Shown: positions 1 through 64,000 of the stretch, piece after piece
How the letters are laid out: every line of letters starts with the position of its first letter
How positions within the stretch are numbered: position 1 is the stretch's first letter
Origin: Pontibacter kalidii
GTDB taxonomy: Bacteria > Bacteroidota > Bacteroidia > Cytophagales > Hymenobacteraceae
Assembly (NCBI RefSeq): GCF_026278245.1
Contig: NZ_CP111079.1
Span: 4,894,501-4,958,500 of the forward strand
Length of the DNA stretch: 64,000 nt
Direction: 5' to 3'
Position numbers and translations under genes: made by a program
Notes under the pieces: generated by a model
What the model was told of the DNA's origin: nothing
Seen by the model: only the letters and a program-made list of their open reading frames with translations
Databases searched by the model: none

Positions 1-221
1 TTCTGCTCGTTCATGGCGCGCTCCAGATCAGCTAGCTTCTGCTCACGCTCTTTGAGAGAGTTAGACAGCTCGTCAACTTTAGCTTTTGATGCCTGTAGCT
101 CGCGCTCCTGGGCTTCCTTGCTTGCCTGCAGGTCTTCGTACTTTTTAGAAGACACACAAGATGCCATCATGGTAGAGCACATCACCAGGGCAAGAGATGC
201 TTTGAAGAAATTGGATTTCAT
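1..221 (-). CDS. OmpA-type coiled-coil lipoprotein, N-terminal part (cut by window edge)
   Basis: The reverse strand reads from an ATG at 221 to the window edge without a stop (73 codons). The protein starts with a lipoprotein signal peptide; the lipobox MMASC puts the lipidated cysteine at residue 22. It continues with VSSKKYEDLQ and a Lys/Glu/Gln-rich heptad region, clearly a coiled coil. Bacteroidota outer-membrane lipoproteins with this start often end in an OmpA peptidoglycan-binding domain, but that part is outside the window, so the OmpA assignment is inference. The plus-strand reading frame over the same bases is its antisense shadow. Confidence is high for the gene and moderate for the family. 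Confidence 0.75.
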   Translation of the reverse strand, partial: MKSNFFKASLALVMCSTMMASCVSSKKYEDLQASKEAQERELQASKAKVDELSNSLKEREQKLADLERAMNEQ

Positions 222-404
222 GGGTGATAGTTGTTTGTTTGGATAATGTTTGAGAATACTTTGCAAATATGGTAAAAGATAAGTCTACAAGCTAAGAAAA
301 CTCTATTAAAACCAATAATTTACCCTTTGTTTCTGCTTCAAAACGCAAGATTCTTTATAATATTGTATGATAGCTATATTTTTTCCAATCTATTTTCTAT
401 CCAG

Positions 405-953
405 CTAAGAATCTGCAAGATACAGCCTGCGCAGGCGGGGCTGCAGGAACCAGATGCCCACAGGCAGTAGCAGAAAAAGGAAAAAAGCTCCCCCGTATTC
501 TCCCATCTGCACCACCCGTTGCTGCTCCGCGCTAACCAGCGACCGGGCCGCAAAGTATACCGCATACAGATAGCAGAAGGTGGCAAGCAAGTGCAGGGGT
601 ACCAGTAGCGCGAGCATGCCAAAAGGCACTGTGCTCATGGCCACATTATCGCGCACCACGGCCAAAGTATACACAAACAATAGCGTGTAAAGCAGGATGT
701 ACAGGTTGCCCAGATGAAAGTATAGCGGCGTGATTTTTATACGTTGCGGCAGCCGACGGTAAAGCCAGCACCCCACCAGCCAAAGCCACAGCACGTACAC
801 CGCAGCCGGTAATGCATCCAGCAGCATGGCACTAATGCGGCCCGTGCGGACAGGCAGGGCATCGAGCAGCCAAAGCAGGCCGTGCTGCAGCAGAAACGGG
901 AGCACAAAAAGGAGCAAAAACGCTTGCCAGTGCCGAAGCAGGAGTAGAACCAT
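405..953 (-). CDS. Polytopic membrane protein of unknown function
   Basis: An 182-residue protein with about five hydrophobic segments, starting MVLLLLRHWQAFLLLF and ending in a basic tail (QPRLRRLYLADS). The frame stays open upstream to about 1040, but that extension is not hydrophobic and overlaps the presumed promoter region of the divergent peptidase gene, so I chose the ATG at 953, directly before the first membrane segment. I recognise no family motif. It is probably an inner-membrane protein; function is unknown. Confidence 0.6.
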   Translation of the reverse strand: MVLLLLRHWQAFLLLFVLPFLLQHGLLWLLDALPVRTGRISAMLLDALPAAVYVLWLWLVGCWLYRRLPQRIKITPLYFHLGNLYILLYTLLFVYTLAVVRDNVAMSTVPFGMLALLVPLHLLATFCYLYAVYFAARSLVSAEQQRVVQMGEYGGAFFLFLLLPVGIWFLQPRLRRLYLADS

Positions 954-1059
954 CAGTATAAATGGGTGTGTAAGCCTGCAAGATGAGAATTTTGTGCCTG
1001 ATACGCCAAAATGCACTATATTTATCAACGCGTAATCCATACTTCATCTTAACCTAACC

Positions 1060-2091
1060 ATGAAAAAGAGTTTATACTTTCTGTGCCTCTTTCTGCTGGC
1101 CGGCTTCGTGAGCCTGGCCCAAAGCAAGCCTGACTATAGTAAGATTACCCTGGTGATACACGGCGGCGCCGGCACCATCACCCGCCAGAACATGACCCCG
1201 GAGAAGGAGAAAGCCTACCGCGAGAAGCTGAACGAGGCACTGCAAGTAGGGTATGAGGTGCTGAAAAAAGGCGGCACCAGTATGGATGCCGTGGAGGCTA
1301 CCATCCACGTCATGGAAAACTCGCCGCTGTTTAACGCCGGCAAGGGTGCCGTATTCACCAACGAGGGCAAAAACGAGATGGATGCCGCCGTAATGGATGG
1401 CAAAACGCTGATGGCGGGCTCTGTGGCCAGCGTAACGACCATTAAGAACCCGATCACGGCCGCTCGTGCGGTCATGGAGAAATCAGAGCACGTAATGATG
1501 ATTGGCAGCGGCGCAGAGCAGTTTGCCAAACTGCAGGGCATTGAGCTGGTGGACCCTTCCTACTTCCATACCGAGACGCGCTACAACCAGCTGCAGAAGA
1601 TAAAGGACAAGGAGAAAACGCAGCTCGACCACGACGGCGGCACCAGCAGCAACGAGAACATCTTTACCGAAGGCAACAAGTTTGGCACAGTTGGCGCTGT
1701 GGCCCTAGATGCTTACGGCAACCTGGCAGCGGGTACTTCTACCGGCGGGATGACCAACAAGCGCTACGGGCGCGTAGGGGACGCCCCGATCATCGGAGCC
1801 GGTACCTATGCTGATAACAACACCTGCGCTGTGTCAGCTACCGGGCACGGCGAGTACTTTATCCGCTCGGTAGTAGCCCACGATATTGCTGCCCTGATGG
1901 AGTACAAAGGTTACTCTGTAAAGAAAGCTGCCGATGAGGTGGTGATGAAGAAGCTGGTGGAGCGCGGCGGCGAAGGCGGCGTGATCGCGCTGGATAAGAA
2001 AGGCAACATTGCCATGCCCTTCAACTCTGCGGGCATGTACCGTGGCTACATTAAAAACGGCAAGGCAGAGGTAGCGATTTACAAGGATTAA
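1060..2091 (+). CDS. Isoaspartyl peptidase / L-asparaginase (Ntn hydrolase), exported
   Basis: A 343-residue type 2 asparaginase (plant-type, IaaA-like). It has a signal peptide (residues 1-20, cleavage probably after SLA), then the family start VIHGGAGTI. The autocleavage site is NKFGTVGAVALD: the peptide bond before Thr210 is cut and Thr210 becomes the N-terminal nucleophile. GTSTGGMTNKRYGRVGD and TGHGEYFIR form the substrate pocket typical of the family. Known members hydrolyse isoaspartyl dipeptides and asparagine. The signal peptide implies periplasmic action on peptides, which is usual for Bacteroidota homologues. It is a single gene with a strong hairpin terminator directly downstream. 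Confidence 0.93.
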   Translation: MKKSLYFLCLFLLAGFVSLAQSKPDYSKITLVIHGGAGTITRQNMTPEKEKAYREKLNEALQVGYEVLKKGGTSMDAVEATIHVMENSPLFNAGKGAVFTNEGKNEMDAAVMDGKTLMAGSVASVTTIKNPITAARAVMEKSEHVMMIGSGAEQFAKLQGIELVDPSYFHTETRYNQLQKIKDKEKTQLDHDGGTSSNENIFTEGNKFGTVGAVALDAYGNLAAGTSTGGMTNKRYGRVGDAPIIGAGTYADNNTCAVSATGHGEYFIRSVVAHDIAALMEYKGYSVKKAADEVVMKKLVERGGEGGVIALDKKGNIAMPFNSAGMYRGYIKNGKAEVAIYKD

Positions 2092-2113
2092 GTAAAGTAT
2101 AACGTTTAGCAGC

Positions 2114-2143
2114 AAAGGCCAGCGGATAATTCCGCTGGCCTTT
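2114..2143. terminator. Intrinsic terminator after the isoaspartyl peptidase gene
   Basis: A perfect 13-base-pair stem (AAAGGCCAGCGGA / TCCGCTGGCCTTT) with a TAAT loop, followed by T-rich DNA, 22 bases after the stop codon. Confidence 0.85.
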
Positions 2144-2159
2144 TAGTTTTTAGTGGTAC

Positions 2160-2705: not shown

Positions 2706-2770
2706 ATGACAGACCTAATAAGTATAACAGTAGCAATAACCCTCAGGTCGTTGCTGACTGCTAAAAACAC

Positions 2771-2802: not shown

Positions 2803-2822
2803 GCTATATCCTACTTTCTATC

Positions 2823-8490: not shown

Positions 8491-11400
8491 TTAAATCAGT
8501 TTACACTCTCCCAGCCCCAAGTCCTTTATCGAAGTCAAAAACAGCTTCGGGTCGATTCTATACTTGCGGGAGTAAGTTGGCAGCGCCAGTTTCTCCTCCG
8601 GCACGTGCAAGGTAATCTCCAGGCGCTTTTGGCCCGGGCTGGCTACGATGGAGTTTTCCAGTGCCTCGGCCAGGTTCGGCGTGAAGTGTTGCAGGTTAAT
8701 GTTGAGCTGCACGCCTTGTGCCATCTTGTCCATCACATCGCCCAACAATTGAATGTTCTGCGGTTTCAGTTCCCACTGGTCCTCGGTTTTATAGCGCAGC
8801 TGTACTTTGCCCCGGATAAACAAGTATAAACCCATCTTCAGGTAAGGCGAGAATTTTACGTAATCCTCCCCGAACAGCGCCATCTGCATGGAAGTATCAT
8901 AGTCCTCAATAGTAAACAGGGCAAAGGGATTGCCGTTCTTGGCTGTGCGGATGACCACGTCGGTTACCATGCCGGCTACGTTCACGTCGCGGTTTTTATA
9001 CTCTTCAATCCTGTCCAGCGGGCAGGTGCAGTATGAGTCGATCTCCAGTTTAAACTGATCGAGCGGGTGGCCCGACATGTAGAAACCAACTACCTCTTTC
9101 TCGCGGCGAAGCATCTCGGCCTGCGTCCAAACCGGCACTTCCGGAATTTTAGGAAGCGGAGCGGCTACGGCGGCACTTCCGCCAAACAGCGACTGCTGCG
9201 CCGCTTGTTGCTCTGCCTGGTAACTGTTGCCATAACGCACCGCCTTCTCCAGCACGCTCATGCTTTCGCCTTCCGGTATCTCGATCAGTTGGGCGCGGTG
9301 GTAGAGCTCCCAGGAGTCGAAGCAGCCGGCCAAAGCCATACTTTCAAACGTCTTTTTATTTACCGCACGCAGGTTGATGCGCTTGGCAAAGTCGAAGATA
9401 TCCTGGTACAGGCCTTTTTCACGCTCCGAGATGATAGCATCTACGGCAGCTTCACCAGTGCCTTTTATCGCACCTAAACCAAAACGGATCTGGCCCTGCT
9501 CGTTCACGTTGAACTTGAGCAACGATTCGTTCACATCCGGGCCCAATACGGCGACCCCTTGCTTGCGGGCTTCCTCAATAAAGAACGTCACCTTTTTGAT
9601 GTCGTTCATGTTGTTGGTCAGCACGGCGGCCATGTACTCGGCCGGGTAGTGGGCCTTCAGGTAGCCTGTCTGGTAAGCTACCACGGAGTAGGCAGCCGAG
9701 TGGGAGCGGTTAAAGCCGTACTGGGCGAACTTCTCCATCACGTCGAATACCTCAGAGGCTTTCTTGGCCGGGATCTTATGAATTTCGGCAGCTCCGGCGA
9801 TGAATTTCTCACGCTCCTCGGCCATCTTCTTCATGTCCTTCTTACCCATGGCGCGGCGCAGCAAGTCGGCACCACCCAGTGAGTAACCGGCTAGGATCTG
9901 GGCCGTTTGCATGATCTGCTCCTGGTATACCATGATCCCGTAGGAGTAGTTCAGGATCGGCTCCAGCAGCTCGTGCGGATACTCTACCTCTTCGCGCCCA
10001 TGCTTGCGGTTAATGAAGTTCGGAATGAACTGCATCGGGCCCGGACGGTAAAGGGCGTTCATGGCAATCAAATCTTCAATGTTGGTCGGCTGCAGGTCTT
10101 TGAGGTACATGCGCATGCCTTCCGACTCGAACTGGAACGTACCAATCGTGTCGCCGCGCTGGTAAAGCTGGTACGTCTTCTCGTCGTCAATCGGAATGGT
10201 ATCGATGTCAATCTCCACGCCGTGGTTCTTCTTGATGAGCTCCAGCGCATCTTTGATGATGGTCAGGGTTTTCAGGCCCAGAAAGTCCATCTTCAACATG
10301 CCTGCACTCTCGATCACCTTTCCGTCAAACTGCGTTACGAGCAGGTCAGAATCTTTGGAAGTAGAAACCGGGATGTAGTTGGTAATATCGTCCGGGGCGA
10401 TGATCACACCCGCCGCGTGGATACCGGTGTTGCGCACCGAGCCTTCCAGCTTTTCGGCCAGTTTCAGCACGGCTGCGCGGTGGTCGTCTCCTTCGCGGAT
10501 GGCGGCCAGATCCAGGTTCTCCATAAAAGCCTTGGCCAAAGTGGTACCCGGGGTGTCCGGTACCATTTTGGCCAGCTCGTTGGCTTCGGCAAGCGGCAGC
10601 GAGGTAGAACGCGCGACGTCTTTGATGGACGATTTGGCCGCCATGGTACCAAAGGTGATGATCTGGGCTACCTGCGTTTTGCCATACTTGTCCACCACGT
10701 AGTCGATTACACGCTGGCGGTTCACGTCGTCGAAGTCAATATCAATATCGGGCATCGACACACGCTCCGGGTTCAGGAAGCGCTCGAAGAGCAGGTTATA
10801 CTTGATCGGATCGATGTTGGTGATACCGATGCAGTACGCTACTGCAGAACCGGCTGCCGAACCACGGCCCGGTCCCACAAACACGCCCATGTCGCGGCCC
10901 CGGTTGATGAAGTCCTGCACGATCAAAAAGTAACCGGCAAAACCCATCGTCTCTACGATGCGGAGTTCATAGTCGAGGCGTTCCTCAATTTCTGGGGTGA
11001 TGTCGGTGTAGCGCTTTCTGGCCCCCTCGTATGTGAGGTGGCGCAGGTACGCGTCAGGACCGGCATGCTCCGGCGGAATCGGGAAGTTGGGCAGCAGGAT
11101 GTCGCGCTTGAGTTTGGGCGGCGTGATCTTGTCTACAATATCGTTGGTGTTATCCACGGCTTCCGGCACGTCCTTGAACAGCTCGTTCATTTCGGCCTGC
11201 GTCTTGAAGTAGAACTGGTCGTTGGGGAAGCCAAAGCGTGTTTTTGGTCCGGCCTCGTCGATGCGGTTCAGCATCTGGCGCACGCCCGGCTGATGGCCAT
11301 ACTTCTGGCGCACGTTCTCCACCGTATCGTAGATCACCTTCTGGTCATCCGACAGGAAGCGGTAGTATTTTGTATGAAAGTCACCCACCGGCGTGCTCTG

Positions 11401-12111
11401 ATCCTCACCCGTGTTCACGCACAGCAGGATGTCGTGCGCGTTCCAGTCTTCCTGGTCCACATAGTGCGAGTCGTTGGTGCAGATAACTTTTACGTTATAC
11501 TTTTTGGCCCATTTCAGCAGTACCTGGTTGATGTCTTCCTGGCTTTTTCCGGTGCCGTCAATGTTCATCAAACCGTGGCGCTGGATCTCGATGTAATAAT
11601 CCTCGCCAAACACATCGAGCCACCATTTAAAAATCTCCTCGGCTTCCTCTTCTGTTTTCCAAAGGATGGCCTGCGGTACCTCAGCGCCAATACAGCAGCT
11701 GGTGGCAATCAGCCCTTTGCTATACTTTAAAAGCAGCTCCTTATCGATACGTGGCCACTTGCTGTAGATACCCTCGATATAGGACATGGAGCAGAGCTTG
11801 GCCAGGTTCTGGTAGCCTTCCTGGTCTTTGGCGAGCAGCAGCTGGTGGTGGCGCACGTCTTTTACCTCTTTGCTAAAGGTTTTCTGGTGGCGGTCTTTTA
11901 CCAGGTAAAACTCGCAGCCCACGATCGGCTTCACGTTATACTTGTTGGCCTCGTTCACGAAGTTGAAGGCGGCGAACATGTTTCCGTGGTCGGTCATGGC
12001 AACGGCGGGCATGCCATCGGCCTGCGCCTTTTTCATGAGCGCGCCGATGCTGGCCTGGCCGTCGAGCAGCGAGTACTGCGTATGGGTATGTAAATGCGAA
12101 AAAACGGGCAT
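8491..12111 (-). CDS. dnaE: DNA polymerase III alpha subunit
   Basis: A 1206-residue replicative polymerase. The N-terminal PHP domain starts HLHTHTQYSLLDG. The polymerase active site is MPDIDIDF, with Asp455 and Asp457 as the first two catalytic aspartates and KMDFLGLKT carrying the third. The fingers region GPGRGSAAGSAVAYC is intact. A helix-hairpin-helix zone follows, then an OB fold near residues 985-1060 (VNVAGMVTDVVIRTAKNGNPF). Length fits Bacteroidota DnaE1. The protein copies both strands as part of the polymerase III holoenzyme. It is a single gene; a long plus-strand open frame over it is an antisense shadow. Confidence 0.98.
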   Translation of the reverse strand: MPVFSHLHTHTQYSLLDGQASIGALMKKAQADGMPAVAMTDHGNMFAAFNFVNEANKYNVKPIVGCEFYLVKDRHQKTFSKEVKDVRHHQLLLAKDQEGYQNLAKLCSMSYIEGIYSKWPRIDKELLLKYSKGLIATSCCIGAEVPQAILWKTEEEAEEIFKWWLDVFGEDYYIEIQRHGLMNIDGTGKSQEDINQVLLKWAKKYNVKVICTNDSHYVDQEDWNAHDILLCVNTGEDQSTPVGDFHTKYYRFLSDDQKVIYDTVENVRQKYGHQPGVRQMLNRIDEAGPKTRFGFPNDQFYFKTQAEMNELFKDVPEAVDNTNDIVDKITPPKLKRDILLPNFPIPPEHAGPDAYLRHLTYEGARKRYTDITPEIEERLDYELRIVETMGFAGYFLIVQDFINRGRDMGVFVGPGRGSAAGSAVAYCIGITNIDPIKYNLLFERFLNPERVSMPDIDIDFDDVNRQRVIDYVVDKYGKTQVAQIITFGTMAAKSSIKDVARSTSLPLAEANELAKMVPDTPGTTLAKAFMENLDLAAIREGDDHRAAVLKLAEKLEGSVRNTGIHAAGVIIAPDDITNYIPVSTSKDSDLLVTQFDGKVIESAGMLKMDFLGLKTLTIIKDALELIKKNHGVEIDIDTIPIDDEKTYQLYQRGDTIGTFQFESEGMRMYLKDLQPTNIEDLIAMNALYRPGPMQFIPNFINRKHGREEVEYPHELLEPILNYSYGIMVYQEQIMQTAQILAGYSLGGADLLRRAMGKKDMKKMAEEREKFIAGAAEIHKIPAKKASEVFDVMEKFAQYGFNRSHSAAYSVVAYQTGYLKAHYPAEYMAAVLTNNMNDIKKVTFFIEEARKQGVAVLGPDVNESLLKFNVNEQGQIRFGLGAIKGTGEAAVDAIISEREKGLYQDIFDFAKRINLRAVNKKTFESMALAGCFDSWELYHRAQLIEIPEGESMSVLEKAVRYGNSYQAEQQAAQQSLFGGSAAVAAPLPKIPEVPVWTQAEMLRREKEVVGFYMSGHPLDQFKLEIDSYCTCPLDRIEEYKNRDVNVAGMVTDVVIRTAKNGNPFALFTIEDYDTSMQMALFGEDYVKFSPYLKMGLYLFIRGKVQLRYKTEDQWELKPQNIQLLGDVMDKMAQGVQLNINLQHFTPNLAEALENSIVASPGQKRLEITLHVPEEKLALPTYSRKYRIDPKLFLTSIKDLGLGECKLI

Positions 12112-13612: not shown

Positions 13613-14941
13613 ATGGAAGTAGCAGCAAGTTCGGGTAAGTTAGGGGGGATGTTCAGGGCCTTGCACTATCGCAACTACAGGCTCTTTTTTGTGGGGCAGG
13701 GGATTTCGCTTATCGGTACCTGGATGCAGCAGATCGCGCTTAGCTGGCTCGTGTATCGCCTTACTGACTCTGTTTTCCTGCTCGGCGCCGTTACCTTCTC
13801 CAGCCAGATCCCCTCGTTTATACTTGGTCCTTTTGCCGGCGTGCTCGCCGATAAGTTTAACCGCCACAAGGTGCTGCTGGTAACGCAAACGCTCTCCATG
13901 GTGCAGGCCTCCACGCTGGCGGCGCTGGTGCTTACCAACACCATTGAGATCTGGCATATACTGGCGCTAAGTGCCTTTCTGGGCATCATAAACGGCTTTG
14001 ATATATCGACCCGGCAGGCCTTTGTGGTACAGATGGTGGATCGCCGCGAGGACCTGAGCAACGCCATCGCCCTGAACTCCTCCTTGTTCAACATGGCCCG
14101 GCTGGTAGGCCCAACGATTGCCGGACTGCTTATCGCAGCGGTGGGCGAGGGGATGTGTATCCTGATCAACGCCGTCAGTTACATTGCAGTGCTGGGGTCC
14201 TTGCTGCTCATGCGCCTGAAACCTTTTGAGCGGGTGCCGCAGCAGCACAAAGTATGGGCGTCGCTCCAGCATGGTTTCCAGTATGCCTTCGGGTTTGCGC
14301 CTATCCGCTCGCTGATCATGATCGTGGCGCTGCTGAGCCTGTTCGGGATGCCATTTACGGTGCTGCTGCCCGTTTTTGCCCGGGACATCCTGCATGGCGG
14401 CGCCAACACGCTGGGCTACCTAATGGGGGCTTCCGGCCTTGGGGCGCTGAGCGGGGCCTTGTTCCTGGCGCAACGGAAGTCGGTGGTGGGTTTGGGAAAG
14501 GTCCTCTTGTTTACCATGTCGCTTTTCGGGTTGGCCCTGATCGCTTTCTCCTTCTCCAAAGTGCTGCTGCTCTCACTAGTGCTCATGCTGTTCTCCGGCT
14601 TTGGCATGATCGTGACGATGGCCTCCTGCAACACGCTGCTGCAGACCTTGGTGGAGGATGACAAACGAGGCCGCGTGATGAGCCTTTATTCCACCGCTTT
14701 TATGGGGATGGCCCCGATCGGGAGTATGCTGGCAGGGTCGGTGGCGGAGATGGTTGGCGTAGGATATACGTTAGCGGGATGTGGCTTTTTGTGTGTGATC
14801 AGTATCATTCCTTTTGCAGTACAAAGGCCGCGCCTGCGCAAAATGGTGCAGCCTATTTATGAGCGCCTCGGCATCGTGCCCGAGATCGCCACCGGCCTGC
14901 AAACCGCCTCTAACCTGACTGCGCCGCCGGAAGAACGGTAG
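13613..14941 (+). CDS. MFS transporter (EntS-like / MFS_3 branch)
   Basis: A 442-residue 12-helix exporter. The family start FRALHYRNYRLFFVGQGISLIGTWM is typical of the MFS_3 (EntS-like) branch, with motif A-like GVLADKFNRHKVLL between helices 2 and 3 and a second copy DDKRGRVMSLY in the C-terminal half. Relatives export siderophores or drugs; the substrate here is unknown because no siderophore genes are nearby. The start at 13613 gives a short cytoplasmic N-terminus before the first helix. Confidence 0.92.
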   Translation: MEVAASSGKLGGMFRALHYRNYRLFFVGQGISLIGTWMQQIALSWLVYRLTDSVFLLGAVTFSSQIPSFILGPFAGVLADKFNRHKVLLVTQTLSMVQASTLAALVLTNTIEIWHILALSAFLGIINGFDISTRQAFVVQMVDRREDLSNAIALNSSLFNMARLVGPTIAGLLIAAVGEGMCILINAVSYIAVLGSLLLMRLKPFERVPQQHKVWASLQHGFQYAFGFAPIRSLIMIVALLSLFGMPFTVLLPVFARDILHGGANTLGYLMGASGLGALSGALFLAQRKSVVGLGKVLLFTMSLFGLALIAFSFSKVLLLSLVLMLFSGFGMIVTMASCNTLLQTLVEDDKRGRVMSLYSTAFMGMAPIGSMLAGSVAEMVGVGYTLAGCGFLCVISIIPFAVQRPRLRKMVQPIYERLGIVPEIATGLQTASNLTAPPEER

Positions 14942-15106: not shown

Positions 15107-15107
15107 A

Positions 15108-20690: not shown

Positions 20691-21476
20691 TTACCGCTTC
20701 TTCTCCAGCCCACCCACATTAATCACAAAACCCACGGCAAATACCGAATAAGCCGCTGTAAGCGTATCGCGGTTTTTCAGGCCAATGGTGGTGCCGCTGG
20801 TGTACTGCAGCTGCACCGATGGGTTAAGCGTGAGGCGCGTGTAAAAGATCGGCTCCAGGAAAATATTGTCCTCCTCCTGGCCCGGCACGTTGTTTAAGGA
20901 ATACTCGTGCATGTTGAGGTAGCTGGCGCGCAGGGCGGTGCCGTAGTTCAGCGGGAACTCCCGGTTGAGCAGCCGCAGCGATTTTTTGCGCTTGGAGGTA
21001 AAGTTTACCTGCACAAAGTATTTGCTGAAGTTGGCGTCGTGGCGCTCGTAGGTCATTTCGCCGGTTTCCTTGTCTTCCTCTTTCTCGGTGCGCTCGGAAC
21101 TGCCGCCCCCAATGCCGCCATAGATCTCCAGGATGCGGTTGTTCTCAGGGCCGAACGTGGTAAAGTAACCACCGGCTGCCTCCAGCAGGTTGTGGCGCAT
21201 GTCGCGTTTGCGGCGCTCGGTGCTCAGCATGGATCCGTTCAGCAGCACGGCAAAGTGATCTGACACGGCATAGGCGGTATTAAACGTGATGTTGCCTTTC
21301 GGGGTAACGTGGCCCCCGGCGCTCAGTTCGCCCTTTTGGGTAAACATCGGCACGTTAGGCACATTGGGCATGTAGGCAGAGGTGCCGCAACCGGCCAGCA
21401 GCAGGGGCAGGGCCAGCAATACTGTGAACTGTTTTATACTTTTAAGGAGGGAAAGCGCGGTAAAGGGTGTGTTCAT
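20691..21476 (-). CDS. Outer-membrane lipoprotein of unknown function, beta-barrel-like
   Basis: A 261-residue lipoprotein; the lipobox LLAGC gives the lipidated Cys30. The mature part alternates polar and hydrophobic residues in strands (AVLLNGSMLST, ILEIYGGIGGGSS, SVQLQYTSGTTIGL) and ends VFAVGFVINVGG, as in small outer-membrane barrels of 8-10 strands. A Glu/Lys-rich loop sits near residue 135. I recognise no named family. The start could be 10 residues later, but the longer form still gives a good lipoprotein signal. Confidence 0.7.
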   Translation of the reverse strand: MNTPFTALSLLKSIKQFTVLLALPLLLAGCGTSAYMPNVPNVPMFTQKGELSAGGHVTPKGNITFNTAYAVSDHFAVLLNGSMLSTERRKRDMRHNLLEAAGGYFTTFGPENNRILEIYGGIGGGSSERTEKEEDKETGEMTYERHDANFSKYFVQVNFTSKRKKSLRLLNREFPLNYGTALRASYLNMHEYSLNNVPGQEEDNIFLEPIFYTRLTLNPSVQLQYTSGTTIGLKNRDTLTAAYSVFAVGFVINVGGLEKKR

Positions 21477-21641: not shown

Positions 21642-22646
21642 ATGAATAAAATACTCATCATACAAACGGCTTTCCTGGGAGACGTGGTGCTGGCCACGGC
21701 GCTGGTGGAGAAGCTGCATACGTTTTACCCGGAGGCGCAACTTGATTTCCTGCTGCGTAAAGGCAACGAGGGACTGCTGAAGGATCACCCGCTGCTGCGC
21801 CAGGTGCTGGTCTGGAACAAGCAGGAAGGCAAGTATAAAAGCCTGATGCGACTGCTCTCGCATATCCGTGCCGAGAAGTATGATCTGGTCGTAAACGTGC
21901 AGCGCTTCGGCGCCACCGGCTTGCTGACCGCTTTATCTGGTGCCAGGGAAACGGTGGGATTTGAGAAGAACCCGTTCTCGCGCCTGTTCACCCGCCGCTA
22001 CGTGCACGATGTGCGGTCGGGTACGCATGAGGTGGAGCGCAATAACATGCTCATCCAAAGTATAACCAACGCCATCCCGGCCAAGCCGAAGCTGTACCCG
22101 AGCCAGGTTGATTTTGCCAAGGTAGAGCAGCTGAAGCAGGAGCCGTTCATCTGCATGGCCCCCACCTCGGTGTGGTTTACGAAGCAGTACCCGCAGGAGC
22201 AGTGGGTGCAGCTCATCAACAGCCTCGACCCAAAGTATAAAGTATACCTGCTCGGTTCGCCTGCCGACAAGCAGCACTGCGAGGAGATCATCGGCCAAAG
22301 TATAAACCAGCGTGTGGAGAACCTCTGCGGACAGCTGAACCTGCTGCAGTCGGCGGCCCTGATGCGCGACGCGGTGCTGAACTACGTGAACGATTCCGGC
22401 CCGATGCACCTGGCCTCCGCCCTGAACGCGCCTACCTGCGCCATCTACTGCTCCACGGTGCCGCGCTTCGGCTTTGGGCCGCTGGCCGATTTTGCCGAGG
22501 TGGTGGAGCGGGAAGAGCCACTCTACTGCCGCCCCTGCGGCCTGCACGGCTACAAGGCCTGCCCGCAAGGCCATTTTAAGTGCGCCCGCGAGATCCGGAA
22601 TGAGCAGCTGCTGGAGGTGTTGAGAGTTAGAGAGTTTAGGAGTTAG
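21642..22646 (+). CDS. Glycosyltransferase family 9 (heptosyltransferase-like), copy 1
   Basis: A 334-residue GT-B enzyme. The start ILIIQTAFLGDVVLATALVE is the family 9 signature. The C-terminal half has NYVNDSGPMHLASALNAPT, the ADP-sugar-binding block. The C-terminus carries a Cys cluster, CRPC then KACPQGHFKC, also present in the second GT9 gene at 33.6 kb. Family members add heptose or similar sugars to the lipid A core on the cytoplasmic side. The last residues (LRVREFRS) are encoded by a TTAGAGAG-type tandem word that continues past the stop codon. Confidence 0.93.
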   Translation: MNKILIIQTAFLGDVVLATALVEKLHTFYPEAQLDFLLRKGNEGLLKDHPLLRQVLVWNKQEGKYKSLMRLLSHIRAEKYDLVVNVQRFGATGLLTALSGARETVGFEKNPFSRLFTRRYVHDVRSGTHEVERNNMLIQSITNAIPAKPKLYPSQVDFAKVEQLKQEPFICMAPTSVWFTKQYPQEQWVQLINSLDPKYKVYLLGSPADKQHCEEIIGQSINQRVENLCGQLNLLQSAALMRDAVLNYVNDSGPMHLASALNAPTCAIYCSTVPRFGFGPLADFAEVVEREEPLYCRPCGLHGYKACPQGHFKCAREIRNEQLLEVLRVREFRS

Positions 22647-22662: not shown

Positions 22663-22828
22663 AATAATACAATGCTTTGCGTTTAAGTAGCCAGGACTCT
22701 CAGTATCAGAGCCCCCTCATTCGCTCATTCAAAACTCACCCCCGCCACACACTATACTTGCCCCACCTGCAGTTTTATACTATATTAGATGTATAAAGCA
22801 CCCGCTAAACCCTACAAAATAAAACTAC

Positions 22829-24130
22829 ATGAAATACGAGCCAATCGGGCAGGAGCTGTTTATCAATCACCGCCACAACTTCGTCAAGCAGCTCAAGCCT
22901 TCGTCCATCGCCATATTTCACTCCAACGATGTAATGCCCACCAACGCCGACGGCACCATGCCCTTCCGGCAGAACAGCGACCTGTTTTACCTCTCAGGCG
23001 TGGACCAGGAGGAAAGTATACTTTTGCTCTTCCCCGATAGCAAGGACGAGCGCATGCAGGAGATCCTGTTCATCCGCGAAACCAACGACCATATCCTCAC
23101 CTGGGAAGGATATAAGCTGACCAAGGAGCAGGCGCGGGAGACATCGGGTATCCCGACCGTTTACTGGACGCACCAGTTCGAGCAGGTGCTGCACACGCTT
23201 ATCTACGAGGCCGAACACCTGTATCTGAACACCAACGAGCACCTGCGCGCCGTGGTGGAAGTAGAGACCCGCGACGCCCGCTTCATCAAAAAAGTAAAGG
23301 AGCAGTTCCCGCTGCACAAGTATGAACGCAGCGCCCCCATTATGCATCAGCTTCGGGCTATAAAGTCAGTACGGGAGGTGGAGTTGATACAGCAGGCCTG
23401 CAACATTACCGACAAAGCTTTCCGCAGGCTGCTGGGCTTTATTAAGCCGGGTGTGATGGAATATGAGATCGAGGCGGAGATATACCACGAGTTCCTGCGC
23501 AACCGCTCCAGAGGGCCAGCCTACGAGCCAATAATTGCCTCCGGCGAGAACGCCTGCATCCTGCACTACACCGACAACAGCCGCGAGTGCAATGACGGCG
23601 ACCTGGTGCTGATGGACTTCGGGGCGGAGTACGCCAACTATGCCGCCGACCTGACGCGCACCGTGCCGGTAAACGGCAGGTTCACCAAAAGGCAGCGCGA
23701 GGTATACGAGGCGGTGCTGACGGTGATGAAAACCGCCATGCACATGCTGGTGCCCGGCAACACCCTGGACCAATACCACAAGTTTGTAGGCACCGTGATG
23801 GAGAACGAGCTGATTAAGCTCGGGCTGCTGAACGAGAGCGACGTGCGCAACCAGGACCCGGAGAGGCCACTGTATAAGAAGTACTTCATGCACGGCACCT
23901 CGCACCACCTGGGGCTGGACGTGCACGATGTGGCCAATAAGTTTCGCCCCTTTCAGGAGGGTATGGTGTTTACCTGCGAGCCCGGCATCTACATCCGGGA
24001 GGAGGGAATAGGCATACGCCTGGAGAACGATATCCTGGTTACGCACAACGGGCCAAAAGACCTCATGCAGCATATACCCTTGGAGGCAGAGGATATCGAG
24101 CGGCTGATGCGGGGTGGGGCTCAAGACTAA
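22829..24130 (+). CDS. pepP: Xaa-Pro aminopeptidase (aminopeptidase P, M24B)
   Basis: A 433-residue cytoplasmic metallopeptidase that removes the N-terminal residue from peptides with proline in second position. The N-terminal creatinase-like domain contains FRQNSDLFYLSG. The catalytic pita-bread domain has the five metal ligands: Asp in LVLMDFGAEY, Asp in YAADLTRTVPVNG, His in GTSHHLGLDVHD, Glu in TCEPGIYI and Glu in IRLENDIL. Length is as in E. coli PepP. It is a single gene about 180 bases after the GT9 gene. Confidence 0.95.
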   Translation: MKYEPIGQELFINHRHNFVKQLKPSSIAIFHSNDVMPTNADGTMPFRQNSDLFYLSGVDQEESILLLFPDSKDERMQEILFIRETNDHILTWEGYKLTKEQARETSGIPTVYWTHQFEQVLHTLIYEAEHLYLNTNEHLRAVVEVETRDARFIKKVKEQFPLHKYERSAPIMHQLRAIKSVREVELIQQACNITDKAFRRLLGFIKPGVMEYEIEAEIYHEFLRNRSRGPAYEPIIASGENACILHYTDNSRECNDGDLVLMDFGAEYANYAADLTRTVPVNGRFTKRQREVYEAVLTVMKTAMHMLVPGNTLDQYHKFVGTVMENELIKLGLLNESDVRNQDPERPLYKKYFMHGTSHHLGLDVHDVANKFRPFQEGMVFTCEPGIYIREEGIGIRLENDILVTHNGPKDLMQHIPLEAEDIERLMRGGAQD

Positions 24131-26655: not shown

Positions 26656-26660
26656 GAGTT

Positions 26661-26704
26661 AAAGTATAAACCCCGCCCTTATGTGAGAGCGGGGTTTATA
26701 CTTT
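26661..26704. terminator. Terminator of pyrB with AAAGTATA in the stem
   Basis: A perfect 16-base-pair stem, AAAGTATAAACCCCGC with GCGGGGTTTATACTTT, and a 12-base loop. It lies 21 bases after the pyrB stop codon on the minus strand. Confidence 0.88.
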
Positions 26705-26724
26705 AAGCATGTCTATACTTCACA

Positions 26725-42599: not shown

Positions 42600-44933
42600 A
42601 TGCCGAAGGAGCAAGAGAAAGTACAAGAGCCTAAAACATCATCATCCATAGCCCATAAGGTAATAAGCTTTACCTGGAAAATATTTTTCCTGGGGATTGC
42701 TGTGGTGGTGGGCTACCTGCTGAGCGTGGAGCACAACGTGCTGTATCTGTTTGGCGCATCCCCGAGCCTGGACAGGCTGGAGAACCCGCGCTCCGACCAA
42801 GCCTCCGAGCTGTATACTTCCGACGGCAAGCTGATCGGCAAGTACTTCCGGGAGAACCGCAGCCCCGTAACCTACAAAGAGCTGTCGCCGCAACTGGTGC
42901 AGGCGCTGCTTGCCACCGAGGATATCCGCTTTTATGAGCATGCCGGCATCGACCCGGAGGCGATCGTATCGGCGTTGTACGGCACCTTTCAGGGGGAGGC
43001 GCGCGGGGCGAGCACTATTACCCAGCAGTTGGCCAAGAACCTCTACAAAACCCGCACCGACGACTCCAAAGGCGTGCTGGGCCACGTTCCCGGACTCAGC
43101 ATCGTGATCTCCAAAACCAAGGAGTGGCTTACGGCCATTAAGCTGGAGCAACGCTACACCAAAGAGGAGATCCTGACGATGTACCTGAACACGGTGGACT
43201 TTGGCTCCAACTCCTTTGGTATAAAGGTAGCGGCCAAGACTTTCTTCAACACCTCACCGGAGAAGCTGAAGATGGAAGAAGCCGCCGTGCTGGTGGGGCT
43301 GCTGAAGGCCCCGACCTACTACAGCCCCCGCTTTAACCCCGAAAACGCCACCCGCCGCCGCAACGTGGTGCTGGGGCAGATGGTAAAGTACGGCTACCTG
43401 GATAAGACCGAAGCAGACTCGCTGAGCCAGGAGCCGCTGGTGCTGGATTACAACGTGGAGAACCATTACGACGGCCCTGCGACCTATTTCAGGGGAGCCG
43501 TGGCCGATTACCTGCAGGAGTGGTGCAAGGACAACGGTTACGACCTCTACCGCGACGGGCTGAAAGTATACACGACCATCGACTCCAGGATGCAGGCCCA
43601 CGCCGAGGCAGCCATGGAGGAGCAGATGCGTAAGCTGCAGCGCCGCTTCGATAACCACTGGAAAGGCAAGAACCCGTGGGTGGATGAGAAGAACCGCGAG
43701 ATACCAGGCTTTATCGAGACAACCATCAAGCGCACCGCCTATTATAAGCGCCTGCAAAAGAAGTACGGCGACGATATACAGGCGATAAACAAGGAACTGA
43801 ACCGCCCGCGCGAGATGAAGGTCTTTACCTGGGACAACGACTCGCTGGAGAAGACCGTGACGATGAGCCCGCTGGATTCGCTGGCTTACTACAAGCACTT
43901 CCTGCATGGCGGCATGATGACCATGGATCCCTTTTCAGGGCACATCAAGGCCTGGGTGGGGGGCATCAACTACAAGTATTTTAAGTACGACCACGTGAAA
44001 CAGGCGCGCCGCCAGCCGGGCTCCACCTTCAAGCCGTTCGTTTATGTGGCCGCTATAGACAACGGTTACTCGCCCTGCGACAAGATCGTGGACCAGCGCG
44101 TCACCATCAACTACGTGGAAAAGGGCGAGAAGAAAAGCTGGTCGCCGAATAATGCCGACTGGGAGTATACGGGCGCCCCGATGACGCTTCGCCGGGGGAT
44201 GGGCAAATCGGTGAACTCTGTAACGGCCCAGCTGACTGAGAAGATAGGATGGGAAACGGTGGTAAAGTACGCCCACAAGCTGGGCATCAAGAGCCCGCTG
44301 CAGGCGGTGCCCTCGATAGGCCTTGGTCCAAGCGACGTGTCTGTCTTCGAGATGGTAGGCGCCTACAGTACTTTTCCCAACTACGGGTTCCATACCGAGC
44401 CGATGTTCATCACCCGCATCGAGGACCAGAACGGCAACCTGCTGCACCAGTTCACGCCCAAGCAGGAGAAAGTGCTGAGTGAGGAGACCGCTTTCCTGAT
44501 GATGCACATGCTGAAGGGAGGCATGGAGGAGCCGGGCGGCACCTCGCAGGCACTGTGGGAGTACGACCTCTGGAAGGGCAATGAGATAGGTGGCAAAACC
44601 GGTACCAGCTCCAACCACTCTGACGGTTGGTTTATGGGCGTAACCAAAGACCTGGTGACGGGCGTGTGGGTTGGCGGCGAGGACCGCAGCATCCACTTCC
44701 GTACCTCACAGCTGGGCGAGGGCTCTAAAACAGCGCTGCCGGTGTTTGGGCTATACATGGAGCGTATTTACCAGGACAAGGACCTGGGCTATACCATGGG
44801 CCGCTTCCCGAAGCCTACCGTAAAGATCAGCAAGAAGTATAACTGCACCACCGTGCTGCCGAAGCAAACCATGCCAGACTCCACGCAGATGGACTCTATA
44901 CTGGAACTGCTGAATGTGGGGGATATTCTGTAA
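42600..44933 (+). CDS. Penicillin-binding protein 1A (bifunctional transglycosylase/transpeptidase)
   Basis: A 777-residue class A PBP. One N-terminal membrane helix lies near residues 25-45. The transglycosylase domain has catalytic Glu107 in ATEDIRFYEHAGID and GASTITQQLAKNLYKTR. The transpeptidase domain has the acyl-serine Ser475 in PGSTFKPF, SVN at 537-539 and KTGT at 666-669. The enzyme polymerises and cross-links peptidoglycan in the periplasm. The frame starts with a TTG nine bases upstream, but the ATG at 42600 is preferred. A long hairpin follows the gene. Confidence 0.97.
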   Translation: MPKEQEKVQEPKTSSSIAHKVISFTWKIFFLGIAVVVGYLLSVEHNVLYLFGASPSLDRLENPRSDQASELYTSDGKLIGKYFRENRSPVTYKELSPQLVQALLATEDIRFYEHAGIDPEAIVSALYGTFQGEARGASTITQQLAKNLYKTRTDDSKGVLGHVPGLSIVISKTKEWLTAIKLEQRYTKEEILTMYLNTVDFGSNSFGIKVAAKTFFNTSPEKLKMEEAAVLVGLLKAPTYYSPRFNPENATRRRNVVLGQMVKYGYLDKTEADSLSQEPLVLDYNVENHYDGPATYFRGAVADYLQEWCKDNGYDLYRDGLKVYTTIDSRMQAHAEAAMEEQMRKLQRRFDNHWKGKNPWVDEKNREIPGFIETTIKRTAYYKRLQKKYGDDIQAINKELNRPREMKVFTWDNDSLEKTVTMSPLDSLAYYKHFLHGGMMTMDPFSGHIKAWVGGINYKYFKYDHVKQARRQPGSTFKPFVYVAAIDNGYSPCDKIVDQRVTINYVEKGEKKSWSPNNADWEYTGAPMTLRRGMGKSVNSVTAQLTEKIGWETVVKYAHKLGIKSPLQAVPSIGLGPSDVSVFEMVGAYSTFPNYGFHTEPMFITRIEDQNGNLLHQFTPKQEKVLSEETAFLMMHMLKGGMEEPGGTSQALWEYDLWKGNEIGGKTGTSSNHSDGWFMGVTKDLVTGVWVGGEDRSIHFRTSQLGEGSKTALPVFGLYMERIYQDKDLGYTMGRFPKPTVKISKKYNCTTVLPKQTMPDSTQMDSILELLNVGDIL

Positions 44934-44990
44934 AGTATAAACTGCGGGTGTTGCCGTCAGCAATGGCACTAAAAGCACCTGCAAAGCATC

Positions 44991-45033
44991 AAAGAAGAAG
45001 GGCCGGCTAAAGTATAGCCGGCCCTTCTTCTTT
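44991..45033. terminator. Bidirectional terminator, 19-base-pair stem, AAGTA loop
   Basis: A perfect 19-base-pair stem (AAAGAAGAAGGGCCGGCTA and complement) with loop AAGTA, between the convergent PBP1A and epimerase genes. Confidence 0.92.
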
Positions 45034-61063: not shown

Positions 61064-62692
61064 ATGGATATCGAATTCAACAAAAACGAGGACGCACTGA
61101 AGCAGCTGGTCTTCCAGCTGAATAGTAGACTGAAGAAAGTACACCTGGGCGGTGGTGAGAAGCGCATCGAGAAGGAGCACCAAAAAGGCAAAATGACGGC
61201 CCGCGAGCGTATAGACTACCTGCTGGATGAAGGCAGCGAGTTCCTGGAGATCGGGGCTTTTGCCGGAGACGGCATGTATGAGGAGGTGGGTGGCTGCCCG
61301 AGCGGCGGCGTGGTTACCGGCATTGGCTACATTAAGGGCCGCCAGTGCGTGGTGGTGGCCAACGATGCCACCGTAAAAGCGGGGGCCTGGTTCCCGATTA
61401 CGGCCAAGAAGAACCTGCGCGCCCAGGAAATCTCCATTGAGAACAAACTGCCCATCGTTTACCTGGTGGATAGCGCCGGCGTGTTTCTGCCGATGCAGGA
61501 TGAGATCTTCCCGGATAAGGAGCACTTTGGCCGCATTTTCCGCAATAACGCCGTGATGAGCTCAATGGGCATCGTGCAGATTGCCGCCATTATGGGCAGC
61601 TGTGTGGCAGGAGGCGCTTACCTGCCTATCATGAGCGACGAGGCCCTGATTGTGGAGGGCACCGGGTCGGTTTTCCTGGCCGGATCATACTTAGTGAAGT
61701 CCGCTATCGGCGAAAGTATAGACAACGAAACGCTGGGTGGCGCGACCACGCACTCGGAGATATCAGGCGTTACCGACTACAAGTGCAAAGACGACCAGGA
61801 GGCGCTGGACCATATCCGCAACATTTTTGACAAGATGGGCGACAAGCCGGTGGCCGGCTTCAGCCGCGTGGCGCCTGCCGCGCCAAGGCTGGATGAGAAA
61901 GAGATCTACGGGCTGCTGCCATCCGACCGCGTGAAGCCTTACGACATGATGGACATCATCCTGCGCCTGGTGGATAACTCGGAGTTTGAGCCCTACAAAG
62001 AGCTTTACGGGCAGACGCTGATCTGTGGATTGGCCCGCATAGACGGCTGGGCCGTGGGCATTGTGGCCAACCAGCGCAAGATCGTGAAGAGCAAGAAAGG
62101 CGAGATGCAGATGGGCGGCGTTATCTACTCCGACTCTGCTGACAAGGCCGCGCGCTTTATCATGAACTGCAACCAAAAGAAGATACCGCTGGTGTTTCTG
62201 CAGGACGTGTCTGGTTTTATGGTAGGCAGCAAGTCGGAGCACGGCGGCATTATCAAAGACGGAGCCAAAATGGTGAGCGCCATGGCCAACTCGGTGGTGC
62301 CGAAGTTTACGATCCTGATTGGCAACAGCTACGGGGCCGGCAACTACGCCATGTGCGGCAAGGCCTATGACCCGCGCCTGATCTACTCCTGGCCAACGGC
62401 GCAGCTAGCCGTGATGAGTGGTGCCGCAGCGGCCAACACGCTGCTGCAGATAGAGGTCTCGTCTAAGAAGGCGAAGGGGGAGGAGGTAAGCCCGGAGGCG
62501 GAGAAGGAGCTGCTGGAGCGCATCACCAACAAGTATAACGAGGAGCTCTCACCCTACTATTCCGCTGCCCGCCTGTGGATAGACGGCATCATCGACCCGC
62601 TGGAGACGCGCAAGGTCATCTCGATGGGCATCGAGGCGGCTAACCATGCGCCTATCGAAAAGCCCTACAACGTGGGCGTGATCCAAACCTGA
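61064..62692 (+). CDS. Acyl-CoA carboxylase beta subunit (carboxyltransferase)
   Basis: A 542-residue carboxyltransferase most like methylcrotonyl-CoA carboxylase beta. The two crotonase-type halves are visible: KMTARERIDYLLDEGSEFLE, CVVVANDATVKAGAWFPIT, VYLVDSAGVFLPMQDE, GSCVAGGAYLPIMSDEALIV in the first; LVFLQDVSGFMVGSKSEHGG, ILIGNSYGAGNYAMCGKAYD in the second. It moves the carboxyl group from biotin to an acyl-CoA. The biotin-carrying alpha subunit is not in the window, so the exact substrate (methylcrotonyl, propionyl or other) is open. Confidence 0.94.
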   Translation: MDIEFNKNEDALKQLVFQLNSRLKKVHLGGGEKRIEKEHQKGKMTARERIDYLLDEGSEFLEIGAFAGDGMYEEVGGCPSGGVVTGIGYIKGRQCVVVANDATVKAGAWFPITAKKNLRAQEISIENKLPIVYLVDSAGVFLPMQDEIFPDKEHFGRIFRNNAVMSSMGIVQIAAIMGSCVAGGAYLPIMSDEALIVEGTGSVFLAGSYLVKSAIGESIDNETLGGATTHSEISGVTDYKCKDDQEALDHIRNIFDKMGDKPVAGFSRVAPAAPRLDEKEIYGLLPSDRVKPYDMMDIILRLVDNSEFEPYKELYGQTLICGLARIDGWAVGIVANQRKIVKSKKGEMQMGGVIYSDSADKAARFIMNCNQKKIPLVFLQDVSGFMVGSKSEHGGIIKDGAKMVSAMANSVVPKFTILIGNSYGAGNYAMCGKAYDPRLIYSWPTAQLAVMSGAAAANTLLQIEVSSKKAKGEEVSPEAEKELLERITNKYNEELSPYYSAARLWIDGIIDPLETRKVISMGIEAANHAPIEKPYNVGVIQT

Positions 62693-62806
62693 GATTATAC
62701 CGCGGCGGTGAATCAAAACTAACGGAAGACGTGTTATAAATTTATACTTTGCGGGCAGCCCCTTTAAGGGGGCTCCTGTAATTTTAGTTTTTATTACGGA
62801 GGAGAA

Positions 62807-63655
62807 GTGACAAAAGGAGAAATTAAGGCGCTGATCTCGCTGCTGGACGATAGCGATTTTGAGGTGGCGTCGTATGTGGAGAAGCAGATTGCTTATTTAG
62901 GCGAAGGTATCATTCCGTTTCTGGAGGAGGAGTGGGAAGAAACTCTGAGCACAGACCTGCAAAAGAAGATTGAAGACCTGATACACAACCTGCAGTTCGA
63001 CGGGCTGACCAAGCGCCTGCTGGACTGGAAGAACAAGGGGGCTGAGAACCTGCTGGAGGGCATGTTTCTGGTGAACTCCTACTTGTATCCGGACGTAGAT
63101 TTCGCCGCCATCAACAAAGCCATAGACCAGCTGTACTTTGATGCCTGGACGCACATGAAGGACGAGATGCACCCCTACGACCAGGTGAAGTCGCTCAATA
63201 ACGTGCTGTTCCGGGAGAAGCGCTTTTCGGCCAATACCAAGAACTTTCACTCGCCGGCCAACTCTATGCTACACCTGGTGCTGGAGACCAAGCGGGGCAA
63301 CCCGCTTACGCTCTGCGTAATCTACATGACGCTGGCGCAACGCCTGAACATGCCGGTATACGGCGTAAACCTGCCCAACCTGTTTATACTTACCTATAAG
63401 CTAGGGGATCTGCAGTTCTACATCAACGTGTACAACAAGGGCCTCATCCTCAGCAAAGCCGACATCGATAACTACATTCTGCAGCTGAGCCTGAACCCTG
63501 TGGATATCTTCTACGAGCCCTGTGCCAACATCGACATCGTGAAGCGCGCGCTCCGCAACCTGGCCTTCTCGTTCGAGAAGATGGACGATCCGGAGAAAGC
63601 CACCGAGGTGAATAAACTGCTGGACGCTATGATGGATGAAGGTGCCGGGATCTGA
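62807..63655 (+). CDS. Transglutaminase-like / SirB1-type protein
   Basis: A 282-residue protein starting with GTG at 62807, preceded by a strong ribosome-binding site (GGAGGAG), rare for this phylum and decisive for the start. Residues 90-230 match the Transglut_core2 (SirB1) family: LNNVLFREKRFSANTKNFHSPAN, GNPLTLCVIYMTLAQRLNMPVYGVNLPNL. The Cys is within the LTLC part. The N-terminus is helical, possibly HEAT-like. Function of the family is not known in detail. A perfect 22-base-pair hairpin follows. Confidence 0.85.
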   Translation: MTKGEIKALISLLDDSDFEVASYVEKQIAYLGEGIIPFLEEEWEETLSTDLQKKIEDLIHNLQFDGLTKRLLDWKNKGAENLLEGMFLVNSYLYPDVDFAAINKAIDQLYFDAWTHMKDEMHPYDQVKSLNNVLFREKRFSANTKNFHSPANSMLHLVLETKRGNPLTLCVIYMTLAQRLNMPVYGVNLPNLFILTYKLGDLQFYINVYNKGLILSKADIDNYILQLSLNPVDIFYEPCANIDIVKRALRNLAFSFEKMDDPEKATEVNKLLDAMMDEGAGI

Positions 63656-63664
63656 TCTTAATGT

Positions 63665-63711
63665 ATAAAGGCAGCGGCCGCTCTTACTATAAGAGCGGCC
63701 GCTGCCTTTAT
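63665..63711. terminator. Bidirectional terminator, perfect 22-base-pair stem
   Basis: ATAAAGGCAGCGGCCGCTCT with two further bases pairs perfectly with its complement around loop CTA. It separates two convergent genes and is the longest perfect stem in the window. Confidence 0.9.
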
Positions 63712-63733
63712 ATCTTATACTACTAAAGTAAGT

Positions 63734-64000
63734 TTAGTATTTCTTGATCAAACAGCCCGTGGCGCGCTTATCGCCGGCGGAAACAGGGCGGTTAGCCAGA
63801 ATTTCGTCAATCACGCTGCGGAGGTAGAAGTTCTTCACCCCGCTTTCCATCTGTGGGTTATCATCAATTGCCCCTTTATACTTGAGTGTAAACTCGCCGT
63901 CCGTGTTGTGCAGCACGAACACCTCCGGAGTTTTAGTGGCACCGAACTGGCGGCTCACCTTCTGCCCTTCGTCTGCCAGGTATGGGCTATAGTTTCTGCT
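63734..64000 (-). CDS. Redoxin (AhpC/TSA-thioredoxin family), C-terminal part (cut by window edge)
   Basis: The reverse frame is open from the window edge to a stop at 63734 (88 residues). It reads RNYSPYLADEGQKVSRQFGA, then TKTPEVFVLHNTDGEFTLKYKGAIDD and ends TGCLIKKY. The cis-proline TPEVFVL and the GCLIK end are typical of the thioredoxin-fold redoxin proteins of Bacteroidota. The active-site cysteines would lie upstream, outside the window. Confidence 0.8.
   Translation of the reverse strand, partial: SRNYSPYLADEGQKVSRQFGATKTPEVFVLHNTDGEFTLKYKGAIDDNPQMESGVKNFYLRSVIDEILANRPVSAGDKRATGCLIKKY

Follow-up and report, generated by a model that had tools for sequence, protein, structure and literature searches.

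A dense seven-base DNA word with several dialects in the genus Pontibacter

A stretch of 64,000 nt from the genome of Pontibacter kalidii (hereafter the window) is densely populated by the heptamer AAGTATA. Here we show that this word is kept site by site, mainly through base substitutions, by a dialect-specific bias that works at the level of the DNA, on both strands and in all reading frames. Moreover, AAGTATA is one of several dialects within the genus, which goes beyond what the initial annotation, made from the window, could see. The phenomenon itself is certain. For its cause, sequence-biased transformation or recombination is our best guess, which we hold tentatively.

In the window we counted 151 copies of AAGTATA, 83 on the plus and 68 on the minus strand, where an order-2 Markov model predicted 8.7. 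No other 7-mer of the window had a higher z. The density is 2.4 copies per kb; the initial annotation had estimated about two heptamers per kb by eye. The whole genome (G000, 5.05 Mb) harbours 8,861 copies (4,451 on the plus and 4,410 on the minus strand), compared to 356 copies of the reversed word (170 and 186). In a chromosome sample of 464 kb, consisting of the window and 20 stretches of 20 kb, AAGTATA was the top 7-mer by z against the order-2 model, with 928 copies observed and 58.9 expected (z 113). Among its 21 one-base neighbours, AAGTATG was 5.3-fold enriched in this sample and the other 20 about 0.6- to 2.6-fold. A is favoured directly before the word and at both positions after it, and T directly after it is avoided (AAGTATAT 2.2-fold vs AAGTATAA 37-fold). 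Because of these flank preferences, the predicted footprint of the word is 8-10 bases. The copies are clustered, since 13.1% of the gaps between them are shorter than 20 bases compared to 4.1% expected. The resident plasmid is hardly enriched, with 20 copies vs 14.0 expected.

Some further observations were made in this genome. Of the 74-kb second contig, 20 kb match a Pontibacter actiniarum plasmid at 95%. Two 20-kb stretches of the first contig (L010 and L014, at 2.35 and 3.35 Mb) have a lower GC content, with 18 and 16 copies of the word, and are possibly recently acquired islands. In the 464 kb, several palindromic hexamers were about 2-7 fold rarer than expected, resembling restriction-site avoidance; among these are CCTAGG (18 observed vs 131 expected), CATATG (56 vs 262), GGATCC (80 vs 274) and ATGCAT (68 vs 227).

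To place the word in its relatives, we compared 50 genomes, assigned to the genus Pontibacter by inference, and called dialects from about 20-40 kb per genome with fixed thresholds. AAGTATA was the word of 20 genomes, AACTATA of four and AGGTATA of 12, while three genomes mixed the AAG and AAC dialects, one each used GGTATAA and TATATA, and nine had no word. The shared pattern is NNN-TATA-[AG], with enrichments of 21.8-fold for the triplet AAG, 37.2 for AAC, 17.0 for AGG, 11.9 for GGG (G117) and 9.4 for ATA (G002). Thus most genomes of the genus that seem poor in AAGTATA carry another word. Loci of the AAG, AAC and AGG dialects mostly had own-word counts of 27-85 (G073, 21), at z 12-40. Whole-genome counts, of which the sums and extremes were taken by eye, gave the same picture: AACTATA occurred 12,524-13,168 times in the four AAC genomes, 6,094-11,674 times in the three mixed ones, 3,531 times in G043 and 532-1,969 times in the other 42, and AGGTATA occurred 5,748-9,303 times in the 12 AGG genomes, 3,132 times in G117 and 720-2,584 times in the other 37. 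By our own division, the own-word density was 0.8-3.1 per kb of whole genome in AAG, AAC, AGG and mixed genomes. Wordless genomes showed a weak residual excess (AAC 4.0-fold, AAG 3.4-fold), perhaps the decaying remains of a former word. These nine genomes are also larger, at 4.9-6.5 Mb with a median of 5.8, compared to a median of 4.6 (largest 5.6) in the 41 word-bearing genomes, a difference uncorrected for phylogeny.

Conservation across the Hymenobacteraceae, suggested as a check by the initial annotation, was seen in this genus only, as AAGTATA or a sister dialect in most of its genomes. A family-wide sample of 150 genomes included 100 from five other genera, and in these the word did not exceed about 2.5-fold the control count, as judged by eye. 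Of 71 named loci from Bacteroidota, each 12 kb or longer, four contained a 7-mer with z above 10 (counts 12-17; the best was CCATCTC in L080, z 14.3), and so did three out of eight 20-kb stretches sampled in the five other genera (best CTTCTTC in G004, z 11.3). Other iterated words may exist outside the genus. In G001, which belongs to another genus of the family, AACGCTA was found 18 times in 20 kb (L216) vs 2.1 expected and AAACGCTA 13 times vs 0.8, perhaps a repeat or another iterated word. GGTATGG in G117 was discarded as a candidate, being mostly the 5-base tandem repeat GGTAT (array in L141). Among the matches listed in searches of the open-access literature for the heptamer itself, for a word of this kind in Bacteroidetes or Pontibacter, and for competence or methylomes of the group, there was no earlier report.

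The initial annotation had proposed that selection acts on the DNA, and a constraint at this level was supported. Our gene calls cover 77% of the bases, so that some genes were counted as spacer. In 366 called genes, all six frames were enriched 3.8- to 38-fold over synonymous shuffles (429 copies in total vs 53.2). Over the order-2 expectation, the enrichment was 14.5-fold in genes and, in spacers of 20-500 bases, 12.4-fold between codirectional, 16.2-fold between convergent and 6.6-fold between divergent genes. Downstream of genes, sense and antisense orientations were alike. As six frames and both strands are affected, with no orientation relative to genes, the data support a constraint that works on DNA and not on protein or RNA. 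A role as -7 promoter box, to which a likeness had also been pointed out, is not supported, as the enrichment is lowest between divergent genes. Neither is it a terminator or gene-end element: the 9.8 copies per kb in 3'-3' spacers shrink to the 16.2-fold given above once composition is corrected for, compared to 14.5-fold in genes. Neighbouring copies in G000 tend to share their orientation (103 same, 14 opposite at 5-20 bases). We rejected polar cooperation between them, since control words off the motif behave alike at 9-24 bases (0.65-0.81 same vs 0.72-0.83).

The word also touches protein sequence. In P. kalidii we counted 497 Ser-Ile pairs vs 404 expected, 87 of them within the word. Among dialects, we compared observed/expected ratios over two sampled loci, in which orthologues recur between genomes. 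Ser-Ile reached 1.21 in AAG genomes (AAC 1.11, AGG 1.02, wordless 1.09) and Gly-Ile 1.16 in AGG genomes (AAG 0.99, AAC 0.80, wordless 1.02). Thr-Ile reached 1.43 in AAC genomes (AAG 1.13, AGG 0.83, wordless 1.00), as did Asn-Tyr with 1.52 (AAG 1.17, AGG 1.26, wordless 1.16), a pair that also stood at 1.58 in G002 (21 cases). Tyr-Thr, another predicted pair, was unmoved over these loci (1.01 in AAG genomes). Some dipeptides shift with the dialect, and because not all predicted pairs move and orthologues recur, this trend is suggestive.

Next to abundance, the fate of individual sites was followed between genomes; the pairs share genomes, hence these counts are non-independent. In pairs of the same dialect, 507 of 821 AAG sites were kept (control words 2,088/6,046), 283 of 486 AAC sites (1,119/3,578) and 267 of 373 AGG sites (1,833/4,677). 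Across dialects, conservation dropped to about the control level, with 50/277 for AAG (control 309/2,261), 11/161 for AAC (106/965) and 10/95 for AGG (211/1,170). Compared to windows shifted by 31-45 bases, own-dialect sites were kept in 73 vs 40% (AAG), 69 vs 38% (AAC) and 78 vs 49% (AGG), and identity in same-dialect pairs peaked over the motif columns and fell again in the flanks. The mixed genomes G058 and G018 seem to maintain both dialects, because AAG sites are still kept there (84/136 with both directions counted, control 386/1,311). For stray AAG sites the excess is less clear, with 45/71 kept in AGG genomes (control 854/1,722) and 27/45 in AAC genomes (497/1,197).

Among the changed sites, 77 of 179 (AAG), 54 of 121 (AAC) and 55 of 90 (AGG) differed by a single substitution, and the remainder had multiple changes or gaps, partly within poorly aligned stretches; a gap was seen in 32 of the 179 changed AAG sites. 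Over all sites, gaps did not exceed their frequency in shifted controls for AAG (4.8 vs 5.0%) and AAC (3.8 vs 6.2%) and were slightly commoner for AGG (3.7 vs 2.2%), which led us to reject insertion by a mobile element. Some AGG copies lie in short tandem arrays. If the excess reflected a selection balance, the scaled selection coefficient would be near 2.8, from ln(15.8). Loss was observed to be slowed 2-3 fold, less than the 5-fold that such a balance predicts.

We then placed the dialects on a species tree of 48 genomes built from nine genes other than dnaE and addAB; three of these nine were available for 30 genomes only, and G127 and G131 are absent. The AAC genomes, together with the mixed ones, form a clade, as do the AGG genomes, while the AAG genomes are paraphyletic. 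From this topology, AAG is probably the ancestral dialect. The wordless state requires five changes, some of them at weakly supported nodes. The dialects round the common core thus follow the nine-gene tree, and two of them can occupy one genome. The gene dnaE (DNA polymerase III alpha; 8491-12111 of the window, minus strand), which contains six AAGTATA copies and was the source of orthologous loci (L101-L148), is discordant with most other sampled genes. Its protein is 97-98% identical between G099 and G083 and between G058 and G043, whereas its neighbours in these pairs are mostly 56-87% identical; the neighbour at 13649-14941 of the window is 96% identical between G043 and G058. From these identities, dnaE looks to have been exchanged between clades, which would mean that recombination between species happens.

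How could such a word arise? In our preferred explanation, the word would be read by a DNA-binding protein of the machinery for natural transformation or homologous recombination, and DNA with the local dialect would be favoured for uptake or recombination. Molecular drive would then multiply the word across the chromosome as a side effect, a mechanism also assumed for the DNA uptake sequences (DUS) of Neisseriaceae. An altered reader protein would create a new dialect, and loss of the process would let the word decay. The near-expected count on the plasmid, the apparent exchange of dnaE between species and the larger size of wordless genomes all count in favour of transformation or recombination, as does the presence of ComEC in 50 of 50 genomes. 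Of the roles put forward in the initial annotation, an uptake-like word fits best, while a Chi-like role is weakened and two methyltransferase families turned out not to be required.

Several points weigh against uptake or recombination. No full-length type II secretion (T2SSE) or type IV pilus ATPase was found: matches to PF00437 span 38-66 of its 370 positions in all 50 genomes, three of them just above the cut-off, and most of the matched proteins are about 640-700 aa long; the search did not extend to the receptor or to other pilus genes. For lack of this ATPase, the known receptor route of DUS seems to be missing. ComEC has a full-length frame in all nine wordless genomes and a stop in two word-bearing ones (G089:C1 and G046:C76). 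Furthermore, a reader protein was not found, the genome-size difference ignores phylogeny, and the enrichment in genes is as high as that in spacers, which mutation bias would also give. On the other hand, PMC8459023 reports that Riemerella anatipestifer, another member of the phylum, can be transformed and uses ComEC, DprA, ComF, RecA and four functionally uncharacterized proteins for this, and therefore a lack of pili does not exclude uptake. As a separate observation, the ComEC frame of the word-bearing G121 (C23) is shorter.

A Chi-like word, which we consider unlikely, would be read by AddAB on single-stranded DNA, where it halts degradation and starts recombination; dense copies would protect and repair the chromosome, and a change in AddAB would create a dialect. 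The machinery is in place: an AddB-type nuclease (PF12705, about 970-1,020 aa) is encoded in all 50 genomes, and 49 of 50 loci have a RecB/AddA-like helicase next to it; the best NCBIfam matches fall below their cut-offs. Chi-like words are short, asymmetric and over-represented, as is the word here, and AddAB is divergent within the genus. In addition, the wordless genomes group more closely on the enzyme trees, with 3 changes for AddB (species tree 5) and 3 for AddA (species tree 4). Over all dialects, however, 7 changes are required on either enzyme tree, AddA or AddB, compared to 7 and 8 on the species tree. AddAB of G111 is nested among AAG types and yet this genome is wordless, and AddB is retained in all nine wordless genomes. 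The strand bias relative to replication, for which the initial annotation had proposed a test, seems slight: 446 of 813 sites lie in the leading orientation (54.9%, z 2.8) when three loci of ambiguous skew are left out, and 481 of 928, summed by hand, over all samples. The seemingly weak strand polarity and an AddAB phylogeny that does no better than the species tree weaken a role as Chi. AddA and AddB do group the AAC genomes against the dnaE tree, but genes flanking addAB and more genes from the dnaE locus revealed dnaE as the discordant one; the AAC genomes form a clade for most sampled genes. We rejected AddAB as dialect determinant, since over all dialects it shows no special link on the nine-gene tree. 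A profile search for mapping the Chi pocket of AddB found no AddB structure by sequence (for Chi recognition, see PMC4027173 and PMC4824097).

Around the addAB loci we noted some additional features. G125:C13 (near 33-36 kb) and G046:C54 (near 158-161 kb) carry second pairs of PD-(D/E)XK matches, in open frames of 958-959 and 1,106-1,136 aa; these may belong to an additional AddAB-like or a defence system. In G028 (L185, 4583-6868), a bacteriophytochrome-like histidine kinase lies between addA and addB, and open reading frames of like size occupy this place in G052, G115, G117, G127 and G129.

It is decidedly unlikely that a methyltransferase or a mismatch-repair process creates and keeps the word, an origin proposed by Elhai (2015) for the highly iterated palindrome HIP1 of cyanobacteria (PMC4390886). 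That paper gives about one HIP1 site per 1,000 bases and describes relatives that use alternate HIPs, each with its own methyltransferase; this density and replacement resemble the dialects found here. Against this stands the form of the word, since AAGTATA, AACTATA and AGGTATA are AT-rich and non-palindromic and only TATATA (G002) is palindromic. The clustering of copies is likewise not predicted for a spacing-limited repair signal. N6_N4_Mtase (PF01555) is found in 31 of 50 genomes and is absent from 19, including the word-rich G083, G064, G079 and G099. G079, with 9,120 copies of the word, has just two weak partial matches to N6_Mtase (PF02384) instead. PF02384 matches occur in 50 of 50 genomes, but among the matches listed the best E-value is weaker than 1e-20 in the word-rich G079, G105, G109, G043 and G061. 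Across the 50 genomes, PF01555 and PF02384 are therefore not required for the word; other families, such as PF00145, PF02086 and PF07669, were not searched.

We give the same low chance to a nucleoid or segregation protein that would bind the word and organise the chromosome through thousands of sites. The chromosome-wide spread on both strands, the footprint with A preferred beside the core and the hardly enriched plasmid would suit such a protein. No gradient from origin to terminus was apparent by eye in the 20 chromosome samples, however, and dialect turnover and absence from several lineages would be unusual for an architectural protein. Finally, a purely context-dependent mutation bias without any recognition protein is very improbable: it agrees with the similar enrichment in genes and most spacers and with site changes that are mainly substitutions, but by our computed ratios the loss of existing copies is 2-3 times slower than that of controls, a strong pull should deplete one-base neighbours, most of which reach or exceed their expected counts (the lowest, AAGTGTA, has 28 vs 43.4), the plasmid is hardly enriched, and a dialect-switching word of 7-8 bases would be hard to make by mutation alone.

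In the window itself, the nine copies that the initial annotation had listed between 21,431 and 23,023 are all exact. The first lies on the minus strand (21435-21441) and is followed on the plus strand by a copy that our gene calls place in coding sequence (21831-21837), a Ser-Ile copy read as CAA-AGT-ATA (22058-22064), a tandem pair seven bases apart (22233-22239 and 22240-22246) and another Ser-Ile copy (22298-22304). The minus-strand copy at 22753-22759 is intergenic by our gene calls, and the copies at 23014-23020 (plus) and 23017-23023 (minus) are the two halves of the palindrome AAGTATACTT (23014-23023). The Ser-Ile examples were located as well: besides the motifs starting at 22058, 22298 and 23014, plus-strand copies in this frame lie at 31898-31904, 32246-32252, 33705-33711 (overlapped by a minus-strand copy at 33708), 34824-34830 and, in a carboxyl transferase gene, 61714-61720. 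The OmpA gene (24547-25980) is free of AAGTATA, as had been stated. According to position lists and gene calls, an intergenic cluster at 26292-26720 holds 12 copies, on the plus strand at 26292, 26362, 26369, 26381, 26460, 26467, 26526, 26534 and 26662 and on the minus strand at 26635, 26697 and 26714. Five minus-strand copies (38644, 38656, 38663, 38677 and 38717) make up a second cluster at 38644-38723. From the spacer sequence, one plus-strand copy (44933-44939) overlaps the TAA stop of a gene whose end is at 44933, and another (45010-45016) lies in a terminator-like hairpin, within its loop.

Genome-wide words with dialects are established uptake sequences in two proteobacterial groups, one of them the Neisseriaceae with their DUS. 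From an independent example in a different phylum, with no full-length pilus ATPase found in its genomes, one would learn how words of this kind originate, change and disappear. It is possible, if doubtful, that Bacteroidota lineages without type IV pili have their own password for uptake or recombination, NNN-TATA-R, whose specificity changed at least four times in one genus, each time rewriting 1-2% of the chromosome down to pairs of amino acids. If the word gates DNA exchange, it would act as a species barrier, which is directly testable. The 50 sequenced species cover several dialects as well as losses, and comparing closely related genomes that differ in dialect offers a tractable route to the reader. 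To our knowledge, no Chi-like word has previously been proposed for Bacteroidota, and a Chi-like role would make this the first for the phylum.

The closest match in behaviour is the DUS dialects of Neisseriaceae. Both words have thousands of copies at about 1-3 per kb (for DUS, 5,918 kingDUS in 2.4 Mb; Frye 2013, PMC3630211), in dialects that differ by a few bases round a fixed core and follow the core phylogeny, and in both two dialects can share one genome (S. muelleri for DUS). However, the word here has 7-8 bases and the AT-rich core TATAR, compared to 10-12 bases and the core CTG of DUS. It also belongs to another phylum, and because a full-length type IV pilus ATPase was looked for in the genus and not found, we do not file the word as a member of the DUS or of the uptake signal sequences (USS) of Pasteurellaceae. 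The USS, taken up via type IV pilus genes, are likewise short, dense, genome-wide and asymmetric, without sequence relation to the word. Chi and Chi-like words of RecBCD and AddAB share with it the short, asymmetric, over-represented form, and AddAB-type proteins are present here; yet the word is far denser than Chi of E. coli (one per 5 kb), seems to have little strand polarity and is tied to an enzyme phylogeny no better than the species tree. The HIPs resemble it in having about one copy per kb and alternate words in relatives, but they are GC-rich palindromes tied to methyltransferases, whereas the word of Pontibacter is AT-rich and asymmetric.

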